A program made the translations under genes and the position numbers. A stretch of DNA of 64,000 nucleotides from Tsukamurella spumae (GTDB lineage: Bacteria; Actinomycetota; Actinomycetes; Mycobacteriales; Mycobacteriaceae): positions 1-64,000 of the forward strand of contig NZ_JAAXOQ010000004.1 in assembly GCF_012396015.1 (NCBI RefSeq). The letters are read 5' to 3'. Each line of letters begins with the position of its first letter. Within the stretch, counting starts at the first letter, position 1. The notes beneath the pieces were generated by a model. It saw only the letters and a list, made by a program, of their open reading frames with translations. It had not been told where the DNA came from and did not search any database. This document shows, piece by piece, positions 125 through 15,975 of this stretch.

Positions 125-580
125 TCAGATCAGGGCGCGGCGCAGGCCGGCGTTGGGGGTCCAGTCGCCGCGGCCGATCTTGGTTGCGGCGACGAACCGG
201 ACTTCGTCGGCGGCCGCCGCTGGGATGCGGCGGAAGTCGACGACCTGCGTGGTGGCGGGCCGTCCACGGGGCACGCCGACGGGCAGAGCGCTGGTGGTGG
301 CCCAGGCGTCAAAGTCGGCGGGCTGTCCAGCGCGGAACCACTGGAAGTAGTGGGCATAGCACAGCCCCGAGGTGGCGGCTGCGCGTCCACCGGGGCCGCC
401 GAGCCAGTACCGCTCGCCGTCGCAGTCGGAGACGGCGCACGGGTCGGTGGCGGCGCGGCGGCGGTCGCCGGCGATGTCGACGACCGGCCACGTCGATGCG
501 CACCAAGGCCCGTCCGGCACCTGCAGAGCGGGGACGCCGCGGGGCCCGGACCGGGCGCGCTCGCCGTTACCGCGCGCCAT
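125..580 (-). CDS. Zinc-ribbon protein, probably truncated second recombinase of the integrase module
   Basis: This 151-residue protein starts at ATG 578-580 inside the end of the integrase gene (14-base overlap), so it is translationally coupled to it. It contains a Cys48-x4-Cys53-x20-Cys74-x2-His77 arrangement followed by Tyr/Phe/Trp-rich sequence, typical of a small zinc ribbon. From memory of two- and three-gene tyrosine-recombinase modules (Tn554-like TnpA/TnpB), the gene coupled behind the first recombinase is often a long second recombinase opening with such a ribbon. Here the frame ends after 151 residues with no recombinase core. I therefore read it as a truncated second recombinase, though a complete small accessory protein cannot be excluded. 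Confidence 0.5.
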   Translation of the reverse strand: MARGNGERARSGPRGVPALQVPDGPWCASTWPVVDIAGDRRRAATDPCAVSDCDGERYWLGGPGGRAAATSGLCYAHYFQWFRAGQPADFDAWATTSALPVGVPRGRPATTQVVDFRRIPAAAADEVRFVAATKIGRGDWTPNAGLRRALI

Positions 581-1691
581 CGCCGTCTCCCTTCAGTCGG
601 TACTGCTGCGGTTCTCGCCAGACCAGATGCTCGGTGGTGCGGAGCTTTTCGGCGAGGTCGTCGCTGGCGAGGTGAATGTAGACGTCGGCGCTGGCCGAAT
701 GGGATTGGCCGAGGCGGGCAGCGATCTCGGCCGCGGTCCATCCGGCTTTGGCCAGGGCGGTGGCGTGGGTGTGGCGGAGCATGTGCGGGTTGAGGTCGTC
801 GATCCCGGCGGCGGCGCCGATCCGTTCGATGAGCTGGTAGGCGTTGGAGTAGGTCATCGGACCACCGACGGGTGGGCGTGAGAGGTTGACGAACACGTAA
901 TCGCTGTCGACGTGGGCGATCTCACCGAGCAGGTACGCGGCATACAGGTCGAAGAACCGCCGCGGAGCCTCGACGATGAATTGGGTCTTCTGCTTTGATA
1001 GCGCCCCGTTGGCGTTGTCGTCACGCCGGCGGATCATCACCTGCCTGCGCATCGGGTTCAAGTCGCCGTGGCGCAGGCCGAGCGCTTGGCCTACCCGCAG
1101 GCCCAGGTCGTACTGCGCCGACAGCAGCAGTCGGTCACGGGTGGTCGACGCCGCGGCGAGCAGCTTGGCGAAGTCGGTCTCGAAGTCGATGACCTGCACG
1201 GTCTCTGCCGACTGCCGGTCGGGCCGGGCCAGGCGGGAGACTTCGCGCGGACGGCGGTGTTCGAGGTGCGCAAGGAAGCTGTGCGCGCGCCGCGGCAGCT
1301 TCGACGGGTTGCGGGTCAGTACCAGATCCTGCGGTCCCCGGCCCTCGACGCGGTGGAACTCGTAAAACTCCCGCACCGCGGCGCTGACCGCTTTCACCGT
1401 GCCGGGTGCACGGCCCCCGCACCGCGACGGCAGCGGCGGCAGTCCAGCGGTGAGAACGGCGACGAAGTCACAAAGCTGCCGGAAATCCAGCTCATCCCAA
1501 ACGATTCCCCGCGCAGCCAGCCAACGATAGAACTGACTCAGGTGCCGCGCGTACGAGCGGACGGTGTTCTGAGAACGTCCGATCGCCCGCTGCCAATGCA
1601 GGAACTGCTCGATCTCGAGCACCGGCAAACCCTGTTGGTCGACGACGGTCCACGACCGGACCCCGTGGACCGTGACCGGGGCGGCCCTCAT
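567..1691 (-). CDS. Tyrosine recombinase / phage-type integrase
   Basis: This 374-residue protein is a site-specific recombinase that cuts and rejoins DNA through a tyrosine. A SAM-like core-binding domain covers roughly residues 22-115. The catalytic domain has Arg199 (LGLRVGQALGL), a Lys near 233-235, His303 and Arg306 (HMLRHT), His331 and the nucleophile Tyr338 (ADVYIH), so the active site looks complete. Length is usual for the family. Its ATG at 1689-1691 overlaps the stop of the upstream gene (ATGA, 1688-1691), and its end overlaps the next gene by 14 bases. The three genes therefore form one coupled unit. It is the likely recombinase of the genomic island that fills the left part of the window, although it lies about 14 kb from the tRNA attachment site. 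Confidence 0.9.
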   Translation of the reverse strand: MRAAPVTVHGVRSWTVVDQQGLPVLEIEQFLHWQRAIGRSQNTVRSYARHLSQFYRWLAARGIVWDELDFRQLCDFVAVLTAGLPPLPSRCGGRAPGTVKAVSAAVREFYEFHRVEGRGPQDLVLTRNPSKLPRRAHSFLAHLEHRRPREVSRLARPDRQSAETVQVIDFETDFAKLLAAASTTRDRLLLSAQYDLGLRVGQALGLRHGDLNPMRRQVMIRRRDDNANGALSKQKTQFIVEAPRRFFDLYAAYLLGEIAHVDSDYVFVNLSRPPVGGPMTYSNAYQLIERIGAAAGIDDLNPHMLRHTHATALAKAGWTAAEIAARLGQSHSASADVYIHLASDDLAEKLRTTEHLVWREPQQYRLKGDGDGAR

Positions 1692-2692: not shown

Positions 2693-3793
2693 GTGACGGC
2701 ACTCTTCTCGCAGGCCGAGGCGAACCCGGTGATGGTTGCGCTGACACGACTGGCGCACGGCTGGTCGAAGAAGCGGCTCGCTGAGGAGGCCGGGATCTCC
2801 GGATCGCACGTCACCCGGGTCGAGGCTGGCGCTCTGCCGCTGGCAGGTAAGGCGCTCGACGATTACGCCCGGGCGTTGCAATGCCCGGTCGAGGCGCTGT
2901 GCGTCGCGTTCGAGCGCTCACCTGCGCAGGGCACGCACTTCCGCGCCAACGCCACCACAGCGGAGTGGAAACGTGACCGCGTCTGGGCGCGCGCCAACCT
3001 GGTCGCGATGCGGCTAGGCCGGGTCGTCGCCCACACCGATCTCGATCCGGAACTGGCGCTGCCCGATCTCGACCCCGGGGACTACGCCGCCGATCTCGGC
3101 GAAATCACGGTCGCGCAAGTCCTGCGCCGGCTCTGGCGCATCGCCGGCCCCATCCGGTCGATGACCGAACTGCTGGAAGCGGCCGGGGTCTTCGTCGTCG
3201 TCGAGGACTTCCACGACCGCGAGATCGACGCGGTCACCCTACGCGCCACCGCGCATCACCCGCACCTGGTGTACGTCAACGCCGCACTACCGCCGGACCG
3301 GATGCGCATGACCCTCGCGCACGAACTCGGGCACCTGGTGATGGATGCGATGACCCTGGTCAGCCCCACCGAAACCGAGCGACGGGCAAATGTCTTCGCC
3401 GCCGAGTTCCTCGCCCCGGTCGACGACATCGGCCCGGCGCTGGACCGGGTCTCGACCCGGACCGTGCACGAGCTCGACGAGCTGCGCCTGGACTGGGGCG
3501 TGAGCGAGTCCTCGCTCGTTGTCCGAGCACGCGAGCGCGGCGTGCTCTCCGACCGGCAGTACCGGGCGATGTTCCGACTACTCAACGAAACCGGCCGGAT
3601 GTACGGCACCCGGCCCGGTGTCCCGACCGAGACACCCGAGCTCGCCCGCGATGTTCTCGCCCAGCTCGCCACCGACGGATACAGCACCACCGAGCTCGAC
3701 GCCCTGACACTGCTCACCGCCGAGAACCGCACCAGCCTGTTCGGCGCACCCGAGGGTGCCACCGCCGGCAGCCGTCACCTGACCGTCGTCTAA
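2693..3793 (+). CDS. XRE helix-turn-helix protein with ImmA/IrrE metallopeptidase domain
   Basis: A 366-residue fusion of a DNA-binding domain and a zinc peptidase, as used to control mobile elements by cleaving or sensing a repressor. Residues about 14-65 form a Cro/cI-type helix-turn-helix (KKRLAEEAGISGSHVTRVEAG). The peptidase motif His210-Glu-Leu-Gly-His214 lies in TLAHELGHLV, followed by the ImmA-type signature with ANVFAAEFLAP. I chose GTG 2693 because GGAGG lies eight bases upstream. An in-frame ATG at 2678 has no such site. Twelve bases at this start are identical to those at the start of the divergent gene at 2416. Its place beside the integrase suggests control of the island. Function is by family resemblance. 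Confidence 0.85.
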   Translation: MTALFSQAEANPVMVALTRLAHGWSKKRLAEEAGISGSHVTRVEAGALPLAGKALDDYARALQCPVEALCVAFERSPAQGTHFRANATTAEWKRDRVWARANLVAMRLGRVVAHTDLDPELALPDLDPGDYAADLGEITVAQVLRRLWRIAGPIRSMTELLEAAGVFVVVEDFHDREIDAVTLRATAHHPHLVYVNAALPPDRMRMTLAHELGHLVMDAMTLVSPTETERRANVFAAEFLAPVDDIGPALDRVSTRTVHELDELRLDWGVSESSLVVRARERGVLSDRQYRAMFRLLNETGRMYGTRPGVPTETPELARDVLAQLATDGYSTTELDALTLLTAENRTSLFGAPEGATAGSRHLTVV

Positions 3794-3813
3794 CAGCGCG
3801 GGGGACGCCAGGG

Positions 3814-4161
3814 ATGTCACGGTGGGGCTGGAACAGCAAGGACGCGGTCAAAGACCACCACTGGCGCGTCCCGCACGGGTCGAACAAGGCAGTGCAGGCC
3901 AAAGAGCAGGACGACGCCGCAGGCGGCCGCCACAACCGTGCCATCCGCACCGCACCGAACGCGCTGGGGCGGGTGGTCCTCCGGTGCCAGTACCGGCGCC
4001 TGTACGCGGAGCTGCGGTGGACCGATGCGACGAGGAAGCACGCCGAGTACCTCGGCGAGATGACCTGGCACAGCCGCGCCGACAACCTCGCCGCCGCCTG
4101 GCGCGAAGCACACGCCCGCGGTCTTACGACCAAGTCCTGCGACCGTCATCCAGTTATTTAA
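3814..4161 (+). CDS. Hypothetical protein
   Basis: A 115-residue basic protein starting at ATG 3814 with a GGGGGA ribosome site upstream, 20 bases after the ImmA-like gene and probably co-transcribed with it. It contains many Arg, His and Trp residues and no cysteine pair or membrane segment. The high charge suggests nucleic-acid contact. I do not recognise a family. It may be a small island accessory factor. Confidence 0.55.
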   Translation: MSRWGWNSKDAVKDHHWRVPHGSNKAVQAKEQDDAAGGRHNRAIRTAPNALGRVVLRCQYRRLYAELRWTDATRKHAEYLGEMTWHSRADNLAAAWREAHARGLTTKSCDRHPVI

Positions 4162-4269
4162 TCTGTCGATCTTACGGTGTGCGTTATCAGATAGCGAGCT
4201 GGGTGTGGGGCCGACGGGCCGCGTGCCGACCGTTATGTTTCGTCGTCATGCGGGCGCAGTGGATTCGGG

Positions 4270-7200
4270 TCACCCGTGTTTGCCTGGCCACCAGCTCGCT
4301 GGTCCGGCCAGGGTGGCGATTGCGGGTACGACGATCGTTCGGACGACGAAGGTGTCGAGGAGTAGTCCGACACCGATGATGAGGCCGACCTGGGTCATGA
4401 TGGCGATCGAGCCGACCATCAGTCCGAACATGCTTGCCGCGAAGATGAGGCCGGCGGAGGTGATGACGGAGCCGGTGTTGGTGACGGTTCGTAGGACTCC
4501 GATGCGAATGCTGCGGTGGGATTCCTCACGCAGCCTGGAGATCAACAGCATGTTGTAGTCGGCGCCGACGGCGACGAGCACGATGAACGCGAGAAGCGGT
4601 ACAGGCCAGGCAATCTCGGTGCGAAGGATGCATTGGAAGATCACCACCCCCACGCCGAGGGCTGCAGCGTAGTTCAGGATAACGGTTCCCAGCAGGTAAA
4701 GCGGTGCAATGAGCGCTCGGAGTAGTGCGATCAGGATGATGCCGACGATGATGAGGGTGGCCAGGGCGAGTAGCCGGAAATCGTGGCTGAGCAGGCGTTG
4801 CAGGTCGGCGTTGATGGCGGGGAATCCCGCTAGCGACACCGATGCGTTCTGCAGGGCGGTGTTGGGTCTCGCTGTCTGGGCTGCGGTGGTGATGGCGTTG
4901 GTGAGTTCAATCGCCTGGCTGCTGTAGGGATCGGCGTCGGTTTGGATGGCATAGCGCACTGTCCGCCCGTCTGGAGAGACGAATTGTGCAGCAACGTCGG
5001 AAAACTTTTGGTTGACGAACGCGTCAGGCGGTAGGTAGAAACCCGTGGCGGCGTCCGAGCCGCGGGTTTCGCGGGCGGTGGTCTGTAGTTGCGCGGCAAG
5101 GGTGGCCATCCCGGCGAACTGTTGCAGGTTGCTGTCGACGAGTGCGGCGACTCCCCCGGCAATCGCGCGGGAGCCAGCAGCGAGTTGACTCACCCCGTTC
5201 TGAAGCTGGGCGAGTTGTGCGGGGAGGTCGCGCGCGGTGACAGCACCCAGCGTTGTGTCCAATGTGTCCACTGCGGCGGTGAGTTGCGCGGTGATGGTGG
5301 TGATGGGTGTGCCGAGGTTGCCCAGTTGCCCGGAGAGAGCGCCGATTTGGAGGAGGAAGTTGGAATCCCGCAGTGTGCCCAGGGTCCGGAGTTGCTGTTG
5401 GACGGCGGCGCACTGAGGGATCGGGGCGCACCAGGGAGCGTTGTCGAGCAAGGGCCGCACGGCGGTCACGAGACTCAAGGCGTCGGATGCCTGCCTTGCC
5501 GCGGTGGCCAATTGCGGTGCCTGCCCAATGAGTTGGTCGAGTGCGGGTGCGGTTGTGCGGAGTTGACCGAGCAGTGGTCGGTATTGCTGGATCTGTTGTC
5601 CCGCGGTCGTGGCCTGGTCGAGAATTCGCAACAGCGGTGTCAGGTTGGCGCGGATCTGGCTGTCGAGCGTGGCAAGGCCGGTCGCGAGTTGGTCGGCGCC
5701 ATCTCGAAGTTGGAACAGGTCGCCAGTGCGTGATCGGCCGTCACTGACTGCCGCGGCGAGTCGGTCACCGATCTGTCCGTTCTGCCACGACAGCTGGGCT
5801 TGTTCGAGGCGGCTGCCGGTGGGTCGGGTCACGCCGACAACCCGGGTCACTCCCGGGACTTGCGCGACGCGTGATGCCAGGTCGTCGAGGTCAGCCAGCC
5901 CTTTCGCGGTACGCATGTCGTTCGGGGATTGGATCACGAGGAATTCCGGGACGGTAGTGTTGGTCGGGAAGTGCCGGTCGAGCAGTGCGTAACCCTCGTT
6001 ACTGTCAGTGGTGGCGGGTTGTCCGCTGCGGTCGTCGTAGGTGATGGTGATGCCCAACGCCACTGCGCCGAGGGCGAGCAGAGCGACGAGTGTCATAGCC
6101 AGTAGCGAGGCGGGGCGCCGTACGACGAGTACCGCGATGCGGTTCCAGTAGCGCCGCGTCAGGTCCGCGCGGGGTGCACCCCACCCGAGGTGGGAGGCGG
6201 CGTGCAGGACCGGCGGTAGCAGGGTGACCGTGGCGAGGAACCCGATGATGATCGCGATCGCACATGCCGGCCCGAGAGTGGAGAAGACGCTCAGTTTTCC
6301 GAACACCATCGCCAGGAACGCCAGGGCGACGGTTGCGGCGGAGGCGAGGATGACGCGCCCGATCGTAGCGGTGGCGTCGATGAGCGCAGGTGCGTGCTCG
6401 GCGCCCGACCGTAATCGCTCGTGGTAGCGGCTGATGAAGAAGACCGTGTAGTCGACGCCGGCACCGAGCAGGATCACCGTCATGAACGCGACGGTGAACT
6501 GTGAAACGGGCATTCCGAACTCGCCCAACGCTGACACCACACCGCGACCCACCCCGAGGCTGATCCCGATCACCAGCAGGGGTACGAGCGCGGTGAACAG
6601 CGACCGGTAGACCACCAGCAGGATGAACGCGATCAGCAGAACCGTGGCCATGGTGATCACCACAAGGTCCTTTTCGGCCGTGACGATCTGATCGCTGAAG
6701 GTGGCGGTGGGCCCGGTGACGTGTACGGTTGTACCGGTGCCGGAGAACGAATGATAGGCGAGGTCGCGCACGGAATCCAAGGCGCGAGTCGCGGCGGGGC
6801 CGCCCAGCGTTCCGGTCAGCCCCACCGGCAGGTACCAGGCCGTCCCGTCGCGGCTCACCGCCTGCGACGCCGTCGTCGGATCCCCCACCAGGTCACGGAC
6901 GGAAGCGACATCGGCGGTGGCGCCACGAAGTTTCTGAACAAGCTCGTCGTAGCGTACGCGCACCGTCGGGGTGAGGCCGCCACGGTTCTCCATGGCGATG
7001 AAAACCGTTGTCTTGGCGCCTTTCTCCCCGAACGCCGTACCCATCCGGTCGAAAGCCTGAAATGACGGCACTCCCGCAGGGATCGGATCGACCGATTGTT
7101 GGCGCACGACTGTCTCGAGCTGCGGGAACGCCAGCGCCAGCACCACACCCACCGCGAGCCACGCGCCGACGACGACAACCTTGTGCGCTAGCGCGTACCG

Positions 7201-7284
7201 AGCCACCCGCGCAAGCGTGGCGCTGTATTCCGCGCGTTCTGACCGCGCGCCAGCCGATCGCCGGTGCACCACCATCAACACCAC
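4270..7284 (-). CDS. MMPL/RND-family membrane exporter
   Basis: A 1004-residue inner-membrane transporter of the MmpL type, proton-driven exporters of lipids and hydrophobic compounds. One transmembrane segment follows the N-terminus (VVVVGAWLAVGVVLALAF). Then come a periplasmic loop, a five-helix MMPL block at roughly 185-365, a long second periplasmic region at about 400-790 rich in Gln and Leu (coiled-coil-like), and a second membrane block to the C-terminus. The length matches full MmpL proteins. No MmpS partner is adjacent. It is read from the same strand as the upstream TetR gene, and a perfect palindrome lies 32-48 bases before its start. Regulation by that TetR protein is likely. The substrate cannot be told from sequence. 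Confidence 0.9.
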   Translation of the reverse strand: MVLMVVHRRSAGARSERAEYSATLARVARYALAHKVVVVGAWLAVGVVLALAFPQLETVVRQQSVDPIPAGVPSFQAFDRMGTAFGEKGAKTTVFIAMENRGGLTPTVRVRYDELVQKLRGATADVASVRDLVGDPTTASQAVSRDGTAWYLPVGLTGTLGGPAATRALDSVRDLAYHSFSGTGTTVHVTGPTATFSDQIVTAEKDLVVITMATVLLIAFILLVVYRSLFTALVPLLVIGISLGVGRGVVSALGEFGMPVSQFTVAFMTVILLGAGVDYTVFFISRYHERLRSGAEHAPALIDATATIGRVILASAATVALAFLAMVFGKLSVFSTLGPACAIAIIIGFLATVTLLPPVLHAASHLGWGAPRADLTRRYWNRIAVLVVRRPASLLAMTLVALLALGAVALGITITYDDRSGQPATTDSNEGYALLDRHFPTNTTVPEFLVIQSPNDMRTAKGLADLDDLASRVAQVPGVTRVVGVTRPTGSRLEQAQLSWQNGQIGDRLAAAVSDGRSRTGDLFQLRDGADQLATGLATLDSQIRANLTPLLRILDQATTAGQQIQQYRPLLGQLRTTAPALDQLIGQAPQLATAARQASDALSLVTAVRPLLDNAPWCAPIPQCAAVQQQLRTLGTLRDSNFLLQIGALSGQLGNLGTPITTITAQLTAAVDTLDTTLGAVTARDLPAQLAQLQNGVSQLAAGSRAIAGGVAALVDSNLQQFAGMATLAAQLQTTARETRGSDAATGFYLPPDAFVNQKFSDVAAQFVSPDGRTVRYAIQTDADPYSSQAIELTNAITTAAQTARPNTALQNASVSLAGFPAINADLQRLLSHDFRLLALATLIIVGIILIALLRALIAPLYLLGTVILNYAAALGVGVVIFQCILRTEIAWPVPLLAFIVLVAVGADYNMLLISRLREESHRSIRIGVLRTVTNTGSVITSAGLIFAASMFGLMVGSIAIMTQVGLIIGVGLLLDTFVVRTIVVPAIATLAGPASWWPGKHG

Positions 7285-7315
7285 TCCTGCCGAAACGGAA
7301 CTACCTGGATCGGTA

Positions 7316-7332
7316 CGCTACATGATGTAGCG
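7316..7332. promoter_or_regulatory. Palindrome upstream of the MMPL gene, probable TetR operator
   Basis: CGCTACAT-G-ATGTAGCG is a perfect inverted repeat with 8-base arms, placed 32 bases before the MMPL start codon. Its half-sites share CGCTAC/GTAGCG with a second palindrome at 8052-8066 upstream of the TetR gene. This is the pattern expected for autoregulated TetR operators. Confidence 0.55.
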
Positions 7333-7386
7333 AAAAGCGGTGGCGCGGTCGCTCGTCTTCGGACTCGGCGTGGACCGTGCGAGCGG

Positions 7387-8001
7387 TCAGGGCATGCGGC
7401 GATGCGCCGTCAGGAAGTCGTCGACGATGCGGCGGCGGTCATCGGCGTCGACGGCCCGGATGCCGGTGATTTTGGCGAAGATCAGCGGTCCGACGAGCTG
7501 GGTGATGGCCAGGGTCAGGTCGAAATCGTCGAGCTCGTCGACGGCACTGGCACTGGTGAGCAATCGGTCGAACGGTTCGCGGTAGTGATCGACCACCCGC
7601 GCACGCAGTGGGGCCAGGGCGTTGCTCTGCTCGCCGGCCCGTTCGGGCACCATCGCCAACCACGCGACCGTGGTGACCTGCAGCGGCGCCTGTTCGATGA
7701 CGTCCGCCTGACGATCCATCAACCGGATCAAGTCCTCGCGCACCGACCCCGAGAGTTCGTGGCGATCGGCCTGGGGCAGCAAACGCTCGAAGGCAGCGGC
7801 GACCAGGTCGGTGGTACTGCCAAAGTGCCGGTAGAGGGTTGTGCGGGCAACCCTGGACAAGCTGGTGACCGCCTCGACGGTGACAGCCTCCACTCCCCCT
7901 CTGCGCAGCAACACCGCCGTGGCGTCGAGTAGACGGTTCCTGGAACGAACCCGCCGCGGATCGACGTCGTCGAGGCCATCGATGCTCACCGCTACCCGCA
8001 T
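7387..8001 (-). CDS. TetR/AcrR-family transcriptional repressor
   Basis: About 204 residues from the ATG at 7999-8001, which follows an AG-rich ribosome site. Extension to a TTG at 8040 is possible. The N-terminal helix-turn-helix is clear (LLRRGGVEAVTVEAVTSLSRVARTTLYRHFGSTTDL in pieces at about residues 30-65), followed by a helical ligand-binding domain. It precedes the MMPL exporter on the same strand and is divergent from the thioesterase gene. Palindromes with related half-sites lie on both sides of it. The simplest reading is a ligand-released repressor of the exporter, itself and perhaps the thioesterase. Confidence 0.88.
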   Translation of the reverse strand: MRVAVSIDGLDDVDPRRVRSRNRLLDATAVLLRRGGVEAVTVEAVTSLSRVARTTLYRHFGSTTDLVAAAFERLLPQADRHELSGSVREDLIRLMDRQADVIEQAPLQVTTVAWLAMVPERAGEQSNALAPLRARVVDHYREPFDRLLTSASAVDELDDFDLTLAITQLVGPLIFAKITGIRAVDADDRRRIVDDFLTAHRRMP

Positions 8002-8051
8002 TCTTCTCGCTGTTGGTCCACGTATGTGGCATCCTGCCAACGATACCGTCA

Positions 8052-8066
8052 GTAGCGGTCCGCTAC
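8052..8066. promoter_or_regulatory. Palindrome between tetR and thioesterase gene
   Basis: GTAGCGG-T-CCGCTAC is a perfect inverted repeat with 7-base arms in the divergent promoter region. It contains the same hexamer pair as the palindrome at 7316-7332, in opposite order. A TetR operator controlling both directions is likely. Confidence 0.45.
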
Positions 8067-8094
8067 CGGCACGAGCATCGATTCGAGGACTGTG

Positions 8095-8571
8095 ATGTCA
8101 GCACCCAGCAGACTGCCCGCGCACTCCCCATCGTGCATGGGCTGCGGGCCGGAAAATGCCAGCGGCCTGCAGCTCGAGGTCTACCGCGACGAGGACCGAG
8201 TCTTTGCAGATCACTCCTTCACCGAAAAGCATTCCGGTGGACCAGGTCTGGCGCATGGAGGGGCCATCTCGGCCGCGTGCGACGACATCATGGGATTTAC
8301 GCTGTGGATCGCCGGCACCCCGGCCGTCACGCGCACGTTGACGGTCAAGTACCGCCGACCGGTACCCCTCCACGTACCAGTACGCCTCACGGCGTGGATC
8401 GACGAGGACGCCGATCACACCCTGCACATCGGGGCGAGCGGGACCGTGGAGGGCGAGACCTACTTTTCCGCCACTAGCGAGTTCGTGAAAGTCGATCTCA
8501 CGCACTTCGCGCGCTACGCCGACACCTCCACGGTAGACAGCTTTTTCGTCAATTTCCTCCGCGCGGACTGA
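8095..8571 (+). CDS. PaaI-type hotdog-fold thioesterase
   Basis: A 158-residue single hotdog domain enzyme, expected to hydrolyse acyl-CoA thioesters in the cytoplasm. The family pattern is visible: an N-terminal CMGCGPENASGL stretch, the helix-capping GLAHGGAISAACDD motif and the strand TRTLTVKYRRPVP. The start is taken as ATG 8095 rather than the overlapping GTG at 8092. It is divergent from tetR and convergent with the AraC-type gene, whose end lies five bases away. A role in releasing fatty acids made by the nearby CYP153 system is conceivable, but the substrate is unknown. Confidence 0.85.
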   Translation: MSAPSRLPAHSPSCMGCGPENASGLQLEVYRDEDRVFADHSFTEKHSGGPGLAHGGAISAACDDIMGFTLWIAGTPAVTRTLTVKYRRPVPLHVPVRLTAWIDEDADHTLHIGASGTVEGETYFSATSEFVKVDLTHFARYADTSTVDSFFVNFLRAD

Positions 8572-8576
8572 CCTGC

Positions 8577-9602
8577 TCAGATGCCCGGCGCTGCCCGCTG
8601 ATTCGACGGTGCGCGGCGGAACTGAGTCGGGGAGCACCCGACCCACCGTGTAAATGCATGGGAGAAACTGGCGACCTCGGAGTACCCCAGTTCTGCGGCT
8701 ATCTCGCCGACACTGATGCCGGGATCCAGCAGTCGCGCGGTGGCTCGTTCTTGGGCGAACTGCTGCCGCAGGCGACGCAGGGTGGTGCCCTCGGCGTGCA
8801 GGCGTCGCTTGAGTGTGCTCACCGATGTCGCCAGCTCCGCCGCGATACGAGCGCCGTCAGCGCGCGCAGGGTCAGCATCGAACTGTGCGCGGACCAGCTG
8901 CGTGTAGGAATTGGGCCTGCGCTGTTCGTAGACGCGTCGAAGCTCGGCGATACCGATCCGGTAGGCCACGGGGTCGGAGAAGCGGCACACGTCGTAGAGC
9001 ACGGCAGCCGGTATATGCACGAACGCCGCGCGCGCGTCGAAAAGGATCCGATGGCCGATCTCACCCACGACGATCAGGTCTGCCGGCGCCTGGCATGTCA
9101 GATGAAGCTCCACGGAGGGGACGGCACCGGCGAGCATGTCCACCAACCGCAGGACAGCCAGACCACCGTAGGTGACGGCGAGACAATCGGTGCCGGGGCT
9201 ATCTGTGCGCCCGGCCAGAGCGATCGTCAGTCCAGAGTCTCCGTGCTGGAACTCGGTGCTCAGCGCGGTCGATATCAGGGGCAAGAACCGAAGCAGTTGA
9301 ACAACTTCGAGGACGGAACCCGCACTGACCAGCGGCAAACTGAGGGGGCCGAAAGAGGTCAGCTGGGCGTGCTCGGCGAACGCCACGCCCAACCGGAATC
9401 CCTGCTGGGCGTCCATCGCCGGATACACCTCGTGAAACCACCGGACAGGCACTTGGCCCTGTCGCGCAATGACGACCGCGAGATCGACGCCCTCGCGGGC
9501 CATGATGCGTCCGAACGCTCGCGTCTCCGCCGCGCCCAGGGCACCGCTGTCGAGGAGCTGCGCGAACGCTAGCGGCGGTATCCCCAACTCGACAAGGCTC
9601 AC
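8577..9602 (-). CDS. AraC-family regulator, probably of the CYP153 operon
   Basis: About 341 residues from GTG 9600-9602, the usual length of AraC regulators with an N-terminal arabinose-binding-like domain. A longer reading to 9668 adds 22 unlikely residues, and no start has a good ribosome site. The C-terminal 100 residues carry two helix-turn-helix motifs (LATSVSTLKRRLHAEG and IAAELGYSEVASFSHAFTRWVG). It is transcribed divergently from the ferredoxin-P450 operon with about 100 bases between. AraC genes next to CYP153 clusters commonly activate them in response to alkanes. That specific role is inferred from position. Confidence 0.85.
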   Translation of the reverse strand: MSLVELGIPPLAFAQLLDSGALGAAETRAFGRIMAREGVDLAVVIARQGQVPVRWFHEVYPAMDAQQGFRLGVAFAEHAQLTSFGPLSLPLVSAGSVLEVVQLLRFLPLISTALSTEFQHGDSGLTIALAGRTDSPGTDCLAVTYGGLAVLRLVDMLAGAVPSVELHLTCQAPADLIVVGEIGHRILFDARAAFVHIPAAVLYDVCRFSDPVAYRIGIAELRRVYEQRRPNSYTQLVRAQFDADPARADGARIAAELATSVSTLKRRLHAEGTTLRRLRQQFAQERATARLLDPGISVGEIAAELGYSEVASFSHAFTRWVGCSPTQFRRAPSNQRAAPGI

Positions 9603-9701
9603 ATGAGCCAATTTAACAAGACATCGCGACGTCCGAGCCTGGATCAAGCACATCTGCCGCGTGCACACTCACCTCTACGACCCACGAACAAGGAGGTGGC
9701 C

Positions 9702-10022
9702 ATGGCCACGATCACTTACGTGACCCACGACGGCGAGGACTACCCCGCGCCGGTGACGCCCGGCAGGTCACTGATGCAGATTGCAGTCGACGAGGCGATA
9801 CCGGGGATCGATGGCGACTGTGGCGGTGAGGCGGCATGCGGAACGTGCCACGTCGTCGTCGACAGCGCGTGGATCGACACCGTCGGACACAGCACAGACG
9901 TCGAAGAAGGCATGTTGAGTATGCACCCCGAACGTGAGGCCAACTCGCGACTGGCCTGCCAGATGACCGCCAACAACGAGTGGGACGGTCTGACCGTTCG
10001 CCTTCCCGAGTTCCAGTTGTGA
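9702..10022 (+). CDS. 2Fe-2S ferredoxin (P450 redox partner)
   Basis: A 106-residue plant/vertebrate-type ferredoxin, close in style to putidaredoxin and terpredoxin. Cluster ligands are Cys40, Cys46, Cys49 (CGGEAACGTC) and Cys86 (RLACQM). The start ATG 9702 has a strong AAGGAGGT site five bases upstream, while the longer open frame to 9603 has none. It is the first gene of the P450 operon, 26 bases before CYP153. It would carry electrons from the FAD reductase two genes downstream to the P450. Confidence 0.93.
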   Translation: MATITYVTHDGEDYPAPVTPGRSLMQIAVDEAIPGIDGDCGGEAACGTCHVVVDSAWIDTVGHSTDVEEGMLSMHPEREANSRLACQMTANNEWDGLTVRLPEFQL

Positions 10023-10048
10023 ACGTCTAAAGCGAAAGAGCAACATCT

Positions 10049-11440
10049 ATGAGCATCTCAACTGCCCTCGCCGACAAAGCGCAGTCCATGATCCCGATCG
10101 ATCTACAAATCCGTGGCGCCCACGTCTATGACAAGGCCCGCCGGATCGTCACCCGAACCGACGGCAAAAAGATCTTCACCGAGACCCCCATCCCGCCTGT
10201 CGAGGAAGTCGAACTCACCGACATCGATCTGAGCAACCCATTCCTCTACCGACAGGGCAGGTGGCGGTCCTACTTCGAGCGTGTGCGCAATGAGGCGCCC
10301 GTTCACTTCCAGCCCCGCAGTCCCTTCGGGCCGTTCTGGTCGGTCACTCGACATGCCGACATCATCGCTGTCGACAAGAACCACGACGCGTTCTCCGCCG
10401 AACCGTTCATCATCATCGGTCGGCCGCCCCGCTTCATGGACATCGCGATGTTCATCGCCATGGACCCGCCGCGGCACGACAAGCAGCGCGCCGCCGTCCA
10501 GGGAGTCGTCGCACCGAAGAACCTGCGCGAGATGGAGGGCCTCATCCGGTCGCGCGTCCGGGAAGTCCTCGACGAGCTACCGCTCGACGAACCGTTCGAC
10601 TGGGTCCAGACCGTGTCGGTCGAACTGACCGCGCGGATGCTCGCGACATTGCTCGACTACCCCTACGAGCAGCGCCACAAACTCGTCCAGTGGTCGGATC
10701 TGGCCACGTCGATGGAGCAGGCCAACGGCGGACCATCAGACAACGACAAAGTTTTCCGCGAGATGGTCGCGATGGCACAGGGCTTGAGTGCGCTATGGCG
10801 AGACAAGGCCGCGCGGACCGCGGCAGGCGAGGAGCCTGGTTTCGACCTCATCACCATGCTGCAGAGCAACGAGGACACCAAAGACCTTCTCGACGACAGC
10901 CCCATGGAGTTCCTCGGGAACCTCGTGCTGCTGATCGTCGGCGGCAACGACACCACCCGCAACTCGATGAGCGGCGGAGTGCTGGCTCTCAACGAGTATC
11001 CCGACCAGTTCGAGAAACTCAAAGCCAATCCGGACCTGATCCCCAACGCGGTGTCGGAGATCATCCGGTGGCAAACCCCCCTGGCGTACATGCGCCGGGT
11101 CGCCAAGAAGGACGTGATGCTCAACGGTCAGTTCATCCGCAAAGGCGACAAAGTCGTCATGTGGTACGCCTCCGGCAACCGCGACGAGCGAGTGTTCGAC
11201 CGCCCGGACGAGCTCATCATCGATCGGTCCAACGCTCGCAACCACATCGCGTTCGGTTTCGGCGTGCACCGTTGCATGGGAAACCGCCTGGCCGAATTGC
11301 AGTTGCGCATTCTCTGGGAAGAACTCCTCGAGCGCTTCGACGACATCGCGGTGGTCGGTGATCCGGAGTACGTGCAGTCCAACTTCGTTCGTGGGATCAG
11401 CAAGATGATGGTCCGTCTGACTCCCAAGCAGGAGACGTGA
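10049..11440 (+). CDS. CYP153-family cytochrome P450, alkane/fatty-acid terminal hydroxylase
   Basis: A 463-residue soluble P450. The oxygen-activating I-helix motif GGNDTTRNS is at residues 298-306 and the haem ligand is Cys409 in FGFGVHRCMGNRLAE. The EIIR motif of the K helix is also present. Several blocks (SPFGPFWSVTRHADI, FIAMDPPRHD, FDWVQTVSVELTARMLATL) match CYP153 enzymes as I know them. These hydroxylate medium-chain alkanes, alcohols or fatty acids at the terminal carbon. Ferredoxin and ferredoxin reductase genes on either side complete a class I electron chain, the usual CYP153 operon. Its stop overlaps the reductase start by four bases (GTGA). Substrate range is inferred from family. 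Confidence 0.9.
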   Translation: MSISTALADKAQSMIPIDLQIRGAHVYDKARRIVTRTDGKKIFTETPIPPVEEVELTDIDLSNPFLYRQGRWRSYFERVRNEAPVHFQPRSPFGPFWSVTRHADIIAVDKNHDAFSAEPFIIIGRPPRFMDIAMFIAMDPPRHDKQRAAVQGVVAPKNLREMEGLIRSRVREVLDELPLDEPFDWVQTVSVELTARMLATLLDYPYEQRHKLVQWSDLATSMEQANGGPSDNDKVFREMVAMAQGLSALWRDKAARTAAGEEPGFDLITMLQSNEDTKDLLDDSPMEFLGNLVLLIVGGNDTTRNSMSGGVLALNEYPDQFEKLKANPDLIPNAVSEIIRWQTPLAYMRRVAKKDVMLNGQFIRKGDKVVMWYASGNRDERVFDRPDELIIDRSNARNHIAFGFGVHRCMGNRLAELQLRILWEELLERFDDIAVVGDPEYVQSNFVRGISKMMVRLTPKQET

Positions 11441-12636
11441 GCACTGATCGGGTCGTGATCGTCGGCGCAAGCCACGCCGGCGCACAGCTGGCGGCCAATT
11501 TGCGCAAGGAGAAGTGGGCTGGAGACATCCTGCTGATCGGCGACGAGGGCCGCCTGCCGTATCAGCGGCCGCCGCTGTCCAAGGCATACCTGGCCGGCGA
11601 TTGCCATCTCGACGATGTCGCGATCCGAAGCCGCCAGTTCTACGACAAGCAACGGATCCAGCTCGTCGACGGAACCGTAACCTCGATCGACCGTGCCGAA
11701 CGAACCGTCACTCTCGGCAACAACGACGCGGTGTCCTACTCGAAGTTGGCCCTGTGCACCGGCGCTCGAGCTCGCGCACTGCCCGTCCCTGGGGCCGATC
11801 TGCCGGGCGTGCACTATCTGCGCACCGCCACCGACGTCGAGGCCATCCGCGCCGCCGCGGTCCCGGGTTCGCGGGTCGTCATTGTCGGCGGCGGGTACAT
11901 CGGCCTGGAGACAGCGGCCTCGCTTCGAACCCTGGGTGTCGAAGTGACCGTCCTGGAGGCGGCAGGACGCGTACTCGAACGTGTCACGGCGCCCGTCGTG
12001 TCGGAATTCTTCGATCGAATTCACCGCGAGAAGGGTGTCGACGTACGGATCGACGCAATCGTCGAGGGGTTCCGCGGCGACAAACGAGTCGCCAGCGTTG
12101 TCCTCGCCGGTGGAGAAACGCTGGCCGCTGACCTGGTCATCGTCGGCGTCGGCGTCATTCCGAACACGGAGCTCGCAGCAGCTGCGGGCATCGACGTCGA
12201 AAACGGCATCCTCGTCGACGACCGCGCTCGTAGCAGCGATCCTGACATCGTCGCAGCCGGCGACTGCGCCAACCACCGAATCGAGCGGTACGGGAGACGT
12301 GTTCGTCTCGAGTGCGTGTCCGCAACAACCGAGCACGCCAAAATCGCGGCGGCCACAATCTGCGACAACACAACCGGTCGTGCCGCACTGCCGTGGTTCT
12401 GGTCCGACCAATACGACCTCAAACTCCAGATCGCCGGGCTCAACACCGGATACGACGAGGTGCTGGTCAGCGGCGACCCCGCCCATGGCCGCGACTTCAC
12501 CTGCTACTATTTCTCCGCCGGAGAACTGATTGCAGCTGACTGCGTCAACAGACCCGCTGACTTCGTGAACGCCAAGCGCGCCATTGCACAACGAGCGCCG
12601 ATCGTCAGGTCCGCATTGATCGGAGCGACCCCATGA
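11437..12636 (+). CDS. FAD-dependent ferredoxin reductase
   Basis: A 399-residue flavoprotein that passes electrons from NAD(P)H to the ferredoxin of the P450 system. The N-terminal FAD-binding GASHAGAQLA lies near residues 8-17 and the NAD(P)H-binding GGGYIGLETA near residue 150. DPDIVAAGDCAN contributes to FAD binding, and a reductase C-terminal domain follows. It resembles putidaredoxin and rubredoxin reductases in length and order. The GTG start overlaps the P450 stop, and its own stop overlaps the next start (ATGA at 12633), so the operon is tightly coupled. Confidence 0.92.
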   Translation: MSTDRVVIVGASHAGAQLAANLRKEKWAGDILLIGDEGRLPYQRPPLSKAYLAGDCHLDDVAIRSRQFYDKQRIQLVDGTVTSIDRAERTVTLGNNDAVSYSKLALCTGARARALPVPGADLPGVHYLRTATDVEAIRAAAVPGSRVVIVGGGYIGLETAASLRTLGVEVTVLEAAGRVLERVTAPVVSEFFDRIHREKGVDVRIDAIVEGFRGDKRVASVVLAGGETLAADLVIVGVGVIPNTELAAAAGIDVENGILVDDRARSSDPDIVAAGDCANHRIERYGRRVRLECVSATTEHAKIAAATICDNTTGRAALPWFWSDQYDLKLQIAGLNTGYDEVLVSGDPAHGRDFTCYYFSAGELIAADCVNRPADFVNAKRAIAQRAPIVRSALIGATP

Positions 12637-13304
12637 CCACATCACCGACAAACGCGGTCAGCCCGGCGGCGCTGACGGGTTCACGCTTCCTCGACATCGA
12701 GCACGCCACCGTCGCGACCTTCACACGCGAAGCCGTCGGCAACGCGACCACCGACAAAGACAAAGCTCGCCGCCTGTTCACCGCGGTACGCGACGCCATC
12801 CGCTACGACCCGTACACCGTCTCCAACGACCCAGAGCATTACCGGGCCAGCCACGTAATCGAATCCGGACGTGGATACTGCGTCCCCAAGGCCGTCGTGC
12901 TCACCGCCGCATTTCGCGCCGCCGGGATCCCAGCGCGGTTCGGCTTCGCCGACGTCCGTAACCACCTCCAAACGGGCACCCTACGTGAGCTGATGGGAAC
13001 CGACGTCTTCGTCTATCACGGGTACAGCCACGTCTACATCGACGGACGGTGGCTCAAGGCAACACCCGCGTTCAACTCGGAACTGTGCGCACGGTTCGGA
13101 GTTGCCCCGATCGACTTCACCGGCGACAGCGACGCGTTGCTCCACGCTCACTCCGCGGACGGCTCAACACACATGGAGTACGTCCGCGAAAGAGGTACGT
13201 ACAACGACCTGCCTCTCGACAACATCCTGGCGGCTCTCAAACAGGCCTATGGCCCTCTGATATTCACGCAGCGTGCGACGCCACTAGATGCATTCCACGC
13301 CTAA
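12633..13304 (+). CDS. Transglutaminase-like cysteine protein
   Basis: A 223-residue protein with the transglutaminase/papain-like core. Cys83 (GRGYCVPKA) is followed by His133 (YSHVYIDGRW), and the third position is occupied in KATPAFN (Asn148) where a DPT-type Asp is common. Proteins of this fold act as proteases, amidases or acyl-transfer enzymes. There is no signal peptide, so it should be cytoplasmic. It is translationally coupled to the ferredoxin reductase (four-base overlap) and followed after about 75 bases by a second Cys-His protein. A role in processing an amide or thioester linked to the P450 product is possible, but nothing in the sequence fixes a substrate. Confidence 0.8.
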   Translation: MTTSPTNAVSPAALTGSRFLDIEHATVATFTREAVGNATTDKDKARRLFTAVRDAIRYDPYTVSNDPEHYRASHVIESGRGYCVPKAVVLTAAFRAAGIPARFGFADVRNHLQTGTLRELMGTDVFVYHGYSHVYIDGRWLKATPAFNSELCARFGVAPIDFTGDSDALLHAHSADGSTHMEYVRERGTYNDLPLDNILAALKQAYGPLIFTQRATPLDAFHA

Positions 13305-13378
13305 CCCGACCTGCCTCAGTCGTCGGCCGGCAATCGACTCTACGAACAAGATCCGCACCGCCTCAACACAGGAGACTC

Positions 13379-14437
13379 GTGTCAGTGTCCGGCCCCTCGA
13401 TGATCGACCCCTACCCGCACCGAATGGGCGGCCACTGTGGGTCCGGTGCGATGCGAGACCTCATGGAGTGGACCGGGCTCGGTTTCGACGGCCCACCCGA
13501 TGAGGGCCTCGTCTTTGCCCTCGGCGGAGCCCTCTCCCTCACCTACATTCGATCAAGCGCGCTGATGCCACCCGTGTACTTGGTCGGACGAGGACCTGAT
13601 TTTGAGGTGGACCTCCCCCGCCGTCTGGGCGGCACCGTCGAGGTGCTTGCCACCGACGACCCGGCCGAGGGTTGGGAGAACCTTCGTGGCGAGATCGATC
13701 AGGGCCGCCCTGCACTGGTCTGGGCGGAGATCGCAGAACTCCCCTATCTGCGGGTCCAGTTGCGCATGAGCCGCCACGACATCGTGGTAGTCGGCTACGA
13801 CGAGACGCAAGGCATCGCGTACATCGCCGACAACGATCGCGAAGATCTTCAACGCGTCCCACTGGACGCACTCGCACGCGCGCGCCGCTCGACCTCCTTC
13901 CCGGAGCCAACCCGACACACGCAGTTTCGTATCAATTGGCCACAGACGCCGCCTTCAATTATCGAGGTGGCCGCACAGGCATTCGCGCAATCCGCAGCGA
14001 GCCTGAGCACCCCAGGCGCATCGACGATCGCCGGGCCCGCAGAACATGGGTCACACGGCCTCGACGCGGCCAGCGCTCTCGCATCCGACGTCTGCAGCTG
14101 GGGAGCCCTGTCCACCGACGACCTCGAGATGCACTTATTCAGCCTCGGCGCCTTCATCGAGAAAGCGGGGACCGGCGGTGGCCTCTTCCGCCGACTGCTG
14201 GCACAGGGCTGCGATGAAATCGCACGCCTCACCGGCGATCACGCAACCGCCATCCTTGCAGCCAACGCCCACCATGCGGCGACATCCTGGACTGCAGTCG
14301 CACGCGCAGCAGTACAGAAGGATCACGCCTCATCCGAGCGGCTCCGATCCGTCACAACCCTCGCGGCAGCTCTACCCGAGGCGGAAGCGACTCTGGAGGC
14401 GTCACTGCGAAAGGCCGCAGCATCCTTGTCAGGCTAA
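13379..14437 (+). CDS. BtrH-like protein (BtrH N-terminal domain plus DUF4872-like region)
   Basis: A 352-residue protein resembling BtrH, the acyltransferase of butirosin synthesis that moves an aminoacyl group from a carrier protein to an aminoglycoside. The N-terminal domain starts with GGHCGSGAMRDLM. Cys20, His133 (SRHDIVVVGYD) and Asp151 (IADND) form a likely papain/C39-type triad. The C-terminal half (from about 185) is helical, Ala-rich and like DUF4872. GTG 13379 lies four bases after GGAG, and GTG 13385 is an equally credible start. It is the last gene of the P450 operon. The family call is from motif memory, and the chemistry here is unknown. Confidence 0.75.
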   Translation: MSVSGPSMIDPYPHRMGGHCGSGAMRDLMEWTGLGFDGPPDEGLVFALGGALSLTYIRSSALMPPVYLVGRGPDFEVDLPRRLGGTVEVLATDDPAEGWENLRGEIDQGRPALVWAEIAELPYLRVQLRMSRHDIVVVGYDETQGIAYIADNDREDLQRVPLDALARARRSTSFPEPTRHTQFRINWPQTPPSIIEVAAQAFAQSAASLSTPGASTIAGPAEHGSHGLDAASALASDVCSWGALSTDDLEMHLFSLGAFIEKAGTGGGLFRRLLAQGCDEIARLTGDHATAILAANAHHAATSWTAVARAAVQKDHASSERLRSVTTLAAALPEAEATLEASLRKAAASLSG

Positions 14438-14517
14438 CCGGGCCAGTCGCGGGAAGTCCGCGAGTAGGGCGCTAAGCAGGGCCGCCGCGTTCACACAACG
14501 CACGCAGGAGCACCACC

Positions 14518-14703
14518 GTGAGCAGGACGCCGGTTCCCGCTCACCTGGGTCCTGATCCGTCGTGGCGATCTGTCGACACGCTGCGAGCCATCGCCGTCGA
14601 CGCCATAGACGGTGCGTCGGGGCGATGCGACGGACGACTGGCGGATCCGGTCGTACAAGTCCCCCATCGTGGACCGCGGCCGACGAGGCCGATGGCCAGG
14701 TGA
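14518..14703 (+). pseudogene. Transketolase-like N-terminal fragment
   Basis: A GTG start with an AGGAG ribosome site opens a 61-codon frame. Its first 35 residues, notably SVDTLRAIAVDAIDGASG, resemble the helix that opens transketolases (typically DT-IR-LA-DAV-K-GHPG). The conserved GHPG is replaced by RCDG and similarity then ends, with a stop at 14703. I read this as the broken start of a transketolase-like gene joined to unrelated DNA. A real small protein is a weaker alternative. Confidence 0.3.
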
Positions 14704-14794
14704 TGCTCGAACACGGCCTCGAGGGGCGTGGTTGCCAAGCGCCTGTCCTCGCGCTCTTACCGGCCCGGTGAGCGCTCCCCCCGACTGGATCAAG

Positions 14795-14822
14795 CAACCG
14801 TTGCGGGTCAGCGCAACGGTTG
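14795..14822. repeat. Perfect 11-base-pair hairpin
   Basis: CAACCGTTGCG (14795-14805) and CGCAACGGTTG (14812-14822) are exact inverted repeats with a six-base loop. No T-run follows on either strand, so a standard terminator is not obvious. It may be the end of a lost mobile element or a transcription stop. Confidence 0.5.
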
Positions 14823-15015
14823 TGGTCCCCGGGGTGGATCGGGACACCGGGAGATCTCGAATCACTGCTCGCTCGCAGCAGTACACCCCGCCAGCGGGTG
14901 GCTATGTCAAGTTGGTCTGGCTCCAACCAGGGCGGTGTGATTTGGCCCCGACTGTAGGCGGGTGGCCGCGTTTGGTCGTAGGTTCGTGGATGTGGATGGG
15001 GAGGATGATCTGCAG

Positions 15016-15265
15016 ATGCCTTCTCGGCGGACGGTCGTTGTCCCGTCAGGGTGGGATCGGGCTTCGGTGTGCGCGTATGCCGAGCATGTGATCGCTCGGG
15101 ATACCGGGGCTTAGCAGTCATCTGTGGGTGCGGGTGAAGTTGCTTGAGGAGCAGCAGCTCGAGGATCTGACGTCGCGGTGGTCGGTGTCGTATGTGGTTC
15201 ACCGGCACCGCAAGGCGTTGTCGATTGTCACCGATCCGACACAGTCAGGCCCGAGGGCGCCCTAA
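15016..15265 (+). pseudogene. Small frameshifted reading frame, unidentified
   Basis: Two consecutive pieces look coding. ATG 15016 to TAG 15114 gives 32 residues (from MPSRRTVVVPSGWDRASV). A frame shifted by one base, from 15122 to TAA 15265, continues with a charged helix-rich stretch (VRVKLLEEQQLEDLTSRW). Codon third positions stay GC-rich across both. A single-base change would join them into one protein of about 80 residues. The family is not recognised. Confidence 0.25.
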
Positions 15266-15426
15266 CTTGGTTGTGGTGGTCTCGGCTGCGAGGGGATCGG
15301 TAGAGGCGGTGTTCGCCGTCTGAGTATCACGGGCATCGTCGTGGATGGCGCGCATGGGAGGATCGGTTTTGAGGCTGATTCCTCCACTGAGTAGCGGTGC
15401 GATATCGAGTGCTCTGACTAGGTTTT

Positions 15427-15642
15427 ATGCGCTCTGGCAGATCAGGGCCTGTGAAGCGGCGGGGAGGACTTGGAGGTGTTCGCGGAGCACCGTCGACAAA
15501 ACGCGGTGAAGACACAGAGCGCGGCGTCCAGGAACGCCTCACGTCGGCTTCGTCGGCGAACGTCGGCCTCCACACATCGATACGTACGCTGCGTCGGAGC
15601 CATGACGCCACAATAGTCACCCCGCGCACCCGCCACCATCAC
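15427..15642 (-). pseudogene. Remnant of a TetR-family regulator
   Basis: The minus-strand translation contains APTQRTYRCVEADVRRRSRR and then EAFLDAALCVFT. This matches the opening of many actinobacterial TetR regulators (RTYRGV-AD-RRAERRERLLEAAL-LF). After this the helix-turn-helix is missing. A shifted frame continues briefly with LSTVLREHLQVLP before a stop. The gene is therefore internally deleted or frameshifted and not functional. Confidence 0.4.
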
Positions 15643-15775
15643 GGACTCGCCGGACCAGCCTCATGGCCAGTCAAGCATTTCGTCATCTGCTGGACCTCCC
15701 AACGCTCAGAACCCCCGGGGCCGGCGATCCGGGGGGGGCTCCTAGCTGACAGCAGTCAGAAACTCATCATATCTG

Positions 15776-15848
15776 TGGAGGCTAGGGGATTCGAACCCCT
15801 GACCCTCGCCTTGCAAAGGCGATGCTCTACCAACTGAGCTAAGCCCCC
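15776..15848 (-). tRNA. tRNA-Ala (anticodon TGC), island copy
   Basis: Reading the minus strand, the 5' acceptor GGGGGCT pairs with AGCCTCC. The G3-U70 wobble that marks alanine tRNAs is present. The D arm is GCTCAGTTGGTAGAGC, the anticodon loop is CTTTGCAAG and the T arm contains GGGGTTCGAATCCCC. It is 73 nucleotides with discriminator A, and CCA is not encoded. It looks fully functional. Because a broken second tRNA-Ala lies 130 bases further on, this copy probably arrived with the island and replaces the host gene. Confidence 0.95.
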
Positions 15849-15975
15849 GTGTGTGGTTGTGCACCCGCTGCTGGGCACCGTCCCACCGCCAAACTACGAC
15901 CTCGTGACGGACATGTCCACCACAGCATCCCTGCTGGTCAACCCCTTACCAAGCCTGTCAGCTGGAGATAACCGA

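Follow-up and report, generated by a model that had tools for sequence, protein, structure and literature searches.

The stretch analysed here (the window) comprises 64,000 nucleotides of Tsukamurella spumae (contig NZ_JAAXOQ010000004.1; source genome of 4.46 Mb in 79 contigs) and carries an operon in which genes for a 2Fe-2S ferredoxin, a CYP153A-like cytochrome P450 and a ferredoxin reductase are followed by two more, encoding a transglutaminase-like protein (TG) and a protein related to the acyltransferase BtrH (the BtrH-like protein; BtrH below for its gene). We find that these two genes accompany CYP153 in many other genomes. An earlier note on this DNA had described the three-gene set and the close coupling of the two genes behind it, and both descriptions hold: all five genes lie on the forward strand between 9702 and 14437, the P450 and reductase genes overlap by 4 bases, as do the reductase and TG genes, and 74 or 95 bases separate TG from BtrH, according to which BtrH start codon is used.

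The CYP153A operon and its two additional genes

The components of a CYP153A operon, namely a CYP153A-type P450 with adjoining 2Fe-2S ferredoxin, FAD-containing ferredoxin reductase and AraC regulator, are all present. The P450 aligns with its best solved relatives over nearly its full length (best E 6.7e-208) and with the CYP153A7 entry at 3.7e-136; PDB entry 5fyf we take to be CYP153A33. The AraC-family regulator matches the NCBIfam CypR model at 2.6e-15, with 56.6 bits against a cut-off of 500. Three-component CYP153A operons (AraC regulator, ferredoxin, CYP153 and ferredoxin reductase) are described for Dietzia and Amycolicicoccus in the available portions of two reports (PMC3743902, PMC12472514); they match the window in these genes and in the type of regulator; the window adds the TG and BtrH-like genes, unmentioned in those portions. 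In two Dietzia loci (L079, L084) the BtrH-like gene stands directly with CYP153. No paper on an association of CYP153 with TG or BtrH-like genes was found in the open-access PubMed Central literature, and the two genes, conserved in many actinobacterial CYP153 operons, appear to be undiscussed there.

The gene set is wider than five, since the AraC regulator, a PaaI-type thioesterase, a TetR regulator and an MMPL/RND transporter adjoin it and are kept in close relatives (Table 1). The transporter gene has the same position in the Tsukamurella and Williamsia copies and persists as a remnant in the Gordonia copies. Promoter and terminator scans of 9500-14700 gave no signal exceeding that of shuffled sequence.

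Table 1. Genes of the operon and its surroundings, with positions in the window
Feature	Position	Strand	Matches and remarks
2Fe-2S ferredoxin	9702..10022	+	Fer2 1.4e-09; relative at 56/80 BtrH loci
CYP153A-like cytochrome P450	10049..11440	+	PDB relatives 5fyf/8hgd/8b2p, CYP153A7 3rwl
FAD-dependent ferredoxin reductase, GTG start	11437..12636	+	Pyr_redox_2 2.5e-67, Reductase_C 1.8e-26
Transglutaminase/NAT-fold protein (TG)	12633..13304	+	Transglut_core 3.3e-21; Cys83, His129, Thr144
BtrH_N + DUF4872 acyltransferase-like protein	13379 (GTG) or 13400 (ATG)..14437	+	BtrH_N 6.7e-38, DUF4872 1.1e-36
AraC-family regulator, divergent from operon	8577..9668	-	HTH_18 3.6e-19
PaaI-type hot-dog thioesterase	8092..8571	+	4HBT 7.4e-08; PaaI relatives at 61/80 BtrH loci
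TetR-family regulator	7387..8040	-	TetR_N 2.3e-10
RND/MMPL-type transporter	4270..7284	-	T. tyrosinosolvens copy annotated RND family transporter
Tyrosine recombinase beside mobile block	567..1691	-	Aligned stretch in L009 annotated tyrosine-type recombinase/integrase

Association with CYP153 across genomes

Among 397 genomes of the order, chosen without regard to these genes, CYP153 was found in 19 at E<=1e-120, with at least 81% identity in 12, and BtrH in 23 at E<=1e-50. All 12 of these closer CYP153 genomes contain the BtrH-like gene (E 4.4e-94 down to 1.2e-230), at 1.4-5.0 kb from CYP153 in nine and on the same contig at 19, 32 and 48 kb in three, and 11 of them contain TG at 50% identity or more, as against 7 of the other 385 (Fisher p for this sample 5e-17 and 4e-16, uncorrected for kinship or transfer). 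TG lies within 3 kb of BtrH in eight of those 11, 13 and 15 kb away in G209 and G221, and on another contig in G138. By contrast, seven genomes of the order with only a 65-68% CYP153 include a single one with BtrH (G247), 11 kb off. Within the genus the division is the same: BtrH is present in 6/6 genomes whose CYP153 is complete and at least 85% identical, and in 0/5 with only the 66-68% class.

Loci were also picked by BtrH itself, as the best 80 of 348, many of which end at contig edges, with CYP153 counted at 75% identity or more. CYP153 is present at 57, TG at 59, both at 48 and a PaaI-type thioesterase at 61; for the 47 loci with at least 8 kb on each side the figures are 34 for CYP153, 39 for TG, 42 for either and 43 for PaaI. 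Gordonia, Rhodococcus, Nocardia, Nocardioides, Williamsia, Dietzia and Aeromicrobium are among the genera with CYP153 at the BtrH locus. Arrangement varies, with CYP153 on the strand opposite to BtrH in 7/57 loci and TG as the gene immediately preceding BtrH in 14 and the one immediately following it in 10. Acinetobacter plasmid records provide 45 matches to the BtrH-like protein and 45 to CYP153, and among the matches listed at least 19 records, mostly near-copies, have the two genes 3.8-3.9 kb apart (one pair spans the record start). Linkage to CYP153 is thus kept at 51-65% BtrH identity with varied order and strand, and, in a second phylum, in Acinetobacter at 26%. The earlier note had named the lack of a conserved association in other genomes as one ground for refutation, and on this check it is clearly upheld (12/12, 6/6 and 57/80). 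A chance arrangement peculiar to the window is rejected by the recurrence of the two genes both in the order genomes and at the loci chosen by BtrH.

A BtrH tree was drawn from 100 rows, 84 of which carry a label; the CYP153 label requires no fewer than 8 changes on it, 6 of them forced by starred branches, against a shuffled mean of 20, and so is clustered, yet with several gains or losses. For Acinetobacter, independent recruitment is plausible rather than proven, the tree being a quick one in which L015, L017 and L018 sit on very long branches. BtrH relatives at 25-31% identity in Streptomyces (L017) and Haladaptatus (L018) stand in unrelated settings with no CYP153, and no annotated BtrH was seen within 9 kb of a Marinobacter CYP153 of 64% identity.

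The CYP153A operon moves horizontally. A T. tyrosinosolvens locus (L009) aligns to the window at 97.8% over 21.7 kb, gyrA included, a T. conjunctivitidis locus (L025) at 99.98% over 12.6 kb (3400-15971), and the Gordonia KTR9 plasmid pGKT3 at 94.9% over 6.7 kb. The block is at least 99.9% identical among several Tsukamurella genomes; the BtrH-like protein occurs in 6/16 genomes of the genus, with 100% identity in five of those six, and G007 and G015 hold two block copies each. Besides their full copies these two genomes contain partial CYP153 genes (G007:C1:59220-60230, 337 residues at 96%; G015:C3:110-979, 291 residues at 84%, including a stop), which looks like decay of older copies of the block.

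The second CYP153 class of the genus (66-68%; for example G000:C24:39838-41190, L116) has no BtrH or TG nearby. In G005, G006 (C10), G008, G009, G010 and G015 its open frame extends to 819-934 aa, a length that would fit fusion with a reductase; one plasmid record is annotated P450/oxidoreductase, and in the window genome it is adjoined by a frame of 580 aa that has matches to ferredoxin and reductase.

Predicted activities and gene context of the TG and BtrH-like proteins

Both Pfam domains of the BtrH-like protein, PF14399 and PF16169, score above gathering (130.4 and 126.6 bits against 29.7 and 28). The earlier note had proposed Cys20, His133 and Asp151 as its catalytic residues; numbered from the ATG at 13400 these are Cys13, His126 and Asp144, which are invariant in 48/48 aligned BtrH-like sequences. 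The structure model has a mean predicted local distance difference test score (pLDDT) of 89.9, and in a structure search with the full-length model the closest solved folds were small-molecule acyltransferases and AziU3; among the 50 matches listed only AziU3/U2, CtaG and CcbD cover both domains. Searches of PDB sequences gave no relative (one further search returned only three matches, at E >=0.48), so the kinship with CtaG (closthioamide) and CcbD (celesticetin), at 9-17% identity, is one of fold alone. The BtrH_N + DUF4872 architecture is that of the BtrH (butirosin)/DarH-type acyltransferases, and the DarH model is matched by 48/48 aligned members at E<=0.001, yet the window protein falls below the curated cut-off of the DarH equivalog (NF053550; 59.7 against 300 bits), and no antibiotic or pigment cluster was recognized around its gene. 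A carrier protein encoded nearby is a feature of the known biosynthetic BtrH members, if no formal criterion of the family. The PP-binding (carrier-protein) domain has no match on the window contig (C34) and 14 matches elsewhere in the genome (E<=0.001), where a carrier could still be encoded. According to the available portions of the reports on them, CtaG and CcbD take their acyl group from carrier proteins and CcbD has a Cys-His-Glu triad (PMC12945683, PMC6772006); the window contig, by contrast, lacks such a donor domain, and its BtrH-like protein has Cys-His-Asp. A phage collection contained no relative at E<=1e-5. Fold and triad together support an acyl-transfer enzyme of the amide-forming type.

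TG likewise scores above gathering for Transglut_core (76 against 23 bits), and its structure model has a pLDDT of 82.4. Only part of the catalytic pair first proposed, Cys83 and His133, is borne out: Cys83 is conserved in 34/34 relatives, whereas His133 is His in only 7/34 and is rejected in favour of His129, present in 34/34 at the expected site of the catalytic His. We place His129 and the Asp column on the transglutaminase family motif by what we take to be its spacing. At the Asp position the relatives have Thr (29) or Ser (5), with Thr144 in the window protein, and in this respect TG departs from the Cys-His-Asp triad of the transglutaminase-like superfamily. A search of PDB sequences with the TG profile gave no match at E<=0.01. 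The CtaJ transglutaminase, the GdmF amide synthase and the arylamine N-acetyltransferases resemble it in fold only, with Z in a range where fold says little, and differ from it at the Asp position. Compared with the nonribosomal peptide synthetase-independent assembly of the closthioamide type, the window offers a CtaG-like transferase in predicted fold and a transglutaminase in fold only, with no carrier proteins found on the contig.

The wider gene context is mostly one of acyl-CoA chemistry. In Rhodococcus sp. 008 the order is ferredoxin, CYP153, reductase, second P450, TG, aldehyde dehydrogenase, short-chain dehydrogenase/reductase (SDR), BtrH, fatty acid-CoA ligase, thioesterase and third P450, and the M. 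aubagnense and PR4 loci include SCP2, a ligase and an N,N-dimethyl-p-nitrosoaniline (NDMA)-dependent alcohol dehydrogenase. Plasmids of M. avium and M. chubuense NBB4 carry BtrH, TG, a ligase and an alcohol dehydrogenase, with CYP153 not within 9 kb; the NBB4 plasmid does carry a CYP153 (86.7% identity), at a distance of about 33 kb. Where BtrH loci lacking CYP153 are annotated, MMPL genes are present together with genes for a thioesterase, an acyl-CoA ligase and an acyl-CoA dehydrogenase. On two plasmids of the roseobacter group (L119, L120) a TG relative at about 50% identity belongs, without BtrH, to an operon of CoA-transferase, MaoC, acyl-CoA dehydrogenase, enoyl-CoA hydratase and phenylacetate-CoA ligase-like genes. 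Five further loci with TG and no BtrH (L109-L113) have acyl-CoA ligase, enoyl-CoA hydratase, SDR, alpha/beta hydrolase, nitronate monooxygenase, amidohydrolase and unrelated genes, a mixture that leaves TG alone there in no clear context. No amine-forming gene was seen in the annotated operons that were examined, the nearest being a glutamine synthetase in Nocardioides (L085), 3.6 kb upstream of BtrH and past a transposase. A one-motif scan of 100 loci (80 + 20), which is a weak test, found no AlkB in place of CYP153.

Working hypothesis and alternatives

On balance we are inclined to read the locus as a mobile operon for CYP153A alkane oxidation that ends in the genes for two paired cysteine enzymes of acyl transfer, which act on acyl thioesters derived from the oxidized chain. 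Hydroxylation of the terminal carbon would fall to the P450 and its two redox partners, and dehydrogenases and an acyl-CoA ligase would convert the chain to acyl-CoA; many loci of Rhodococcus, Nocardia and Nocardioides have the genes for these enzymes within the operon, and in the window genome they presumably lie elsewhere. Cys13 of the BtrH-like protein, activated by His126 and Asp144, may then accept the acyl group and, in the manner of CcbD and CtaG, transfer it to a nucleophile, and TG could perform a second acyl transfer or a hydrolysis through Cys83 and His129; the two would act jointly. Direct observation covers which genes are present, that they are linked in several genera and in two phyla, which folds are predicted and which residues never vary; catalysis, thioester donor and joint action are inferred. 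Linkage, context and the lack of a PP-binding domain on the contig favour acyl-thioester chemistry on the oxidized chain, with CoA as a likelier donor than a carrier protein. The acceptor is tentatively an amine; an alcohol or water, each as doubtful as the other, is a weaker candidate, and anything else is unlikely. The earlier note's hydroxylated chain that ends as an amide therefore stands in part: the association and an enzyme of amide-forming type are supported, the amide product is not shown, in view of the missing carrier domain on the contig, the lack of an amine-forming gene in the annotated operons examined, the mostly acyl-CoA context and the absent Asp in TG. Amide formation may serve as a first guess at the acceptor chemistry, on the strength of the fold.

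Several points weigh against this acyl-transfer hypothesis. The identity and E-value cut-offs were chosen after the lists had been seen, the Fisher test ignores kinship and transfer, and many copies are plasmid-borne near-copies. CYP153 is absent from 13/47 well-flanked BtrH loci, and the BtrH/TG pair is therefore not exclusive to alkane hydroxylation; nor are TG and BtrH always used together, since BtrH occurs mostly without TG in Dietzia (0/5 loci, several of them truncated), in Williamsia (1/6) and on the PR4 plasmid, and TG is remote from it in G138, G209 and G221. The window operon itself has no ligase or dehydrogenase gene, and TG is without the usual catalytic Asp.

A purely catabolic role is conceivable, if doubtful: the two proteins would be thioesterase or deacylase helpers that hydrolyse stalled or branched acyl-CoA or conjugates, feed beta-oxidation and recover CoA, forming no new bond. 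The acyl-CoA ligase, acyl-CoA dehydrogenase and thioesterase genes beside BtrH where CYP153 is missing, the TG relatives in acyl-CoA operons of the roseobacter group and, in the available portion of one report, the impairment of a Dietzia CYP153 mutant on branched pristane (PMC12472514) are in keeping with such a role. However, with a PaaI-type thioesterase already at 61/80 loci two more hydrolases look redundant, and the closest solved folds of the BtrH-like protein are acyltransferases of small molecules and AziU3. Those same folds, with only AziU3/U2, CtaG and CcbD matching both domains, make it improbable that the pair acts on protein, as peptidase or transglutaminase towards the P450 system, a regulator or a transporter, and the contexts lacking CYP153 share lipid enzymes and no common protein target. 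The distribution already speaks against mere hitch-hiking of functionally unlinked neighbours on a mobile element. The near-identical Tsukamurella copies, the doubled block in two genomes and the adjoining tyrosine recombinase are what such an account would draw on, but a linkage that survives 51-65% BtrH identity, changed order and strand and the distance to Acinetobacter, with a CYP153 label changing at least eight times on the tree, renders it highly improbable. Rather unlikely is a use of CYP153 in biosynthesis, where the two cysteine enzymes, in the manner of CtaG and CtaJ but lacking dedicated carriers, would turn oxidized alkane chains into an N- or O-acyl lipid (surfactant, signal or storage compound) moved by the adjacent MMPL transporter.

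CYP153 operons have been studied as alkane hydroxylases, and recurrence of the partnership in other bacteria hints at an undescribed step in the microbial handling of oxidized oil chains. If a conjugate is made, alkane degraders would gain a second product from the same operon; if the pair only salvages acyl-CoA, a missing step for awkward chains would be found; and were the biosynthetic reading true, a widespread mobile lipid pathway would lie within operons so far read as plain alkane degradation. Since some of the strains that carry the genes can be cultivated (Rhodococcus erythropolis, Dietzia, Gordonia), the question is directly testable.

Other genes recur near BtrH. A cassette of a diiron oxygenase (AurF family in L097) and a flavin monooxygenase, often with an SDR and an RND/MMPL transporter, is found at 10/80 loci (L022, L024, L031, L035, L045, L061, L073, L096, L097 and L098). 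Mce/MlaD-type lipid transport genes adjoin BtrH/TG operons at Nocardioides and Rhodococcus loci (L029:1220-3888, L122:16586-19374), and the gene for a predicted metal-dependent hydrolase (PF10118 in L015) neighbours BtrH in Acinetobacter as well as in mycobacteria, and so across phyla (L015:7392-8261, L014:11976-12845, L016:10900-11775).

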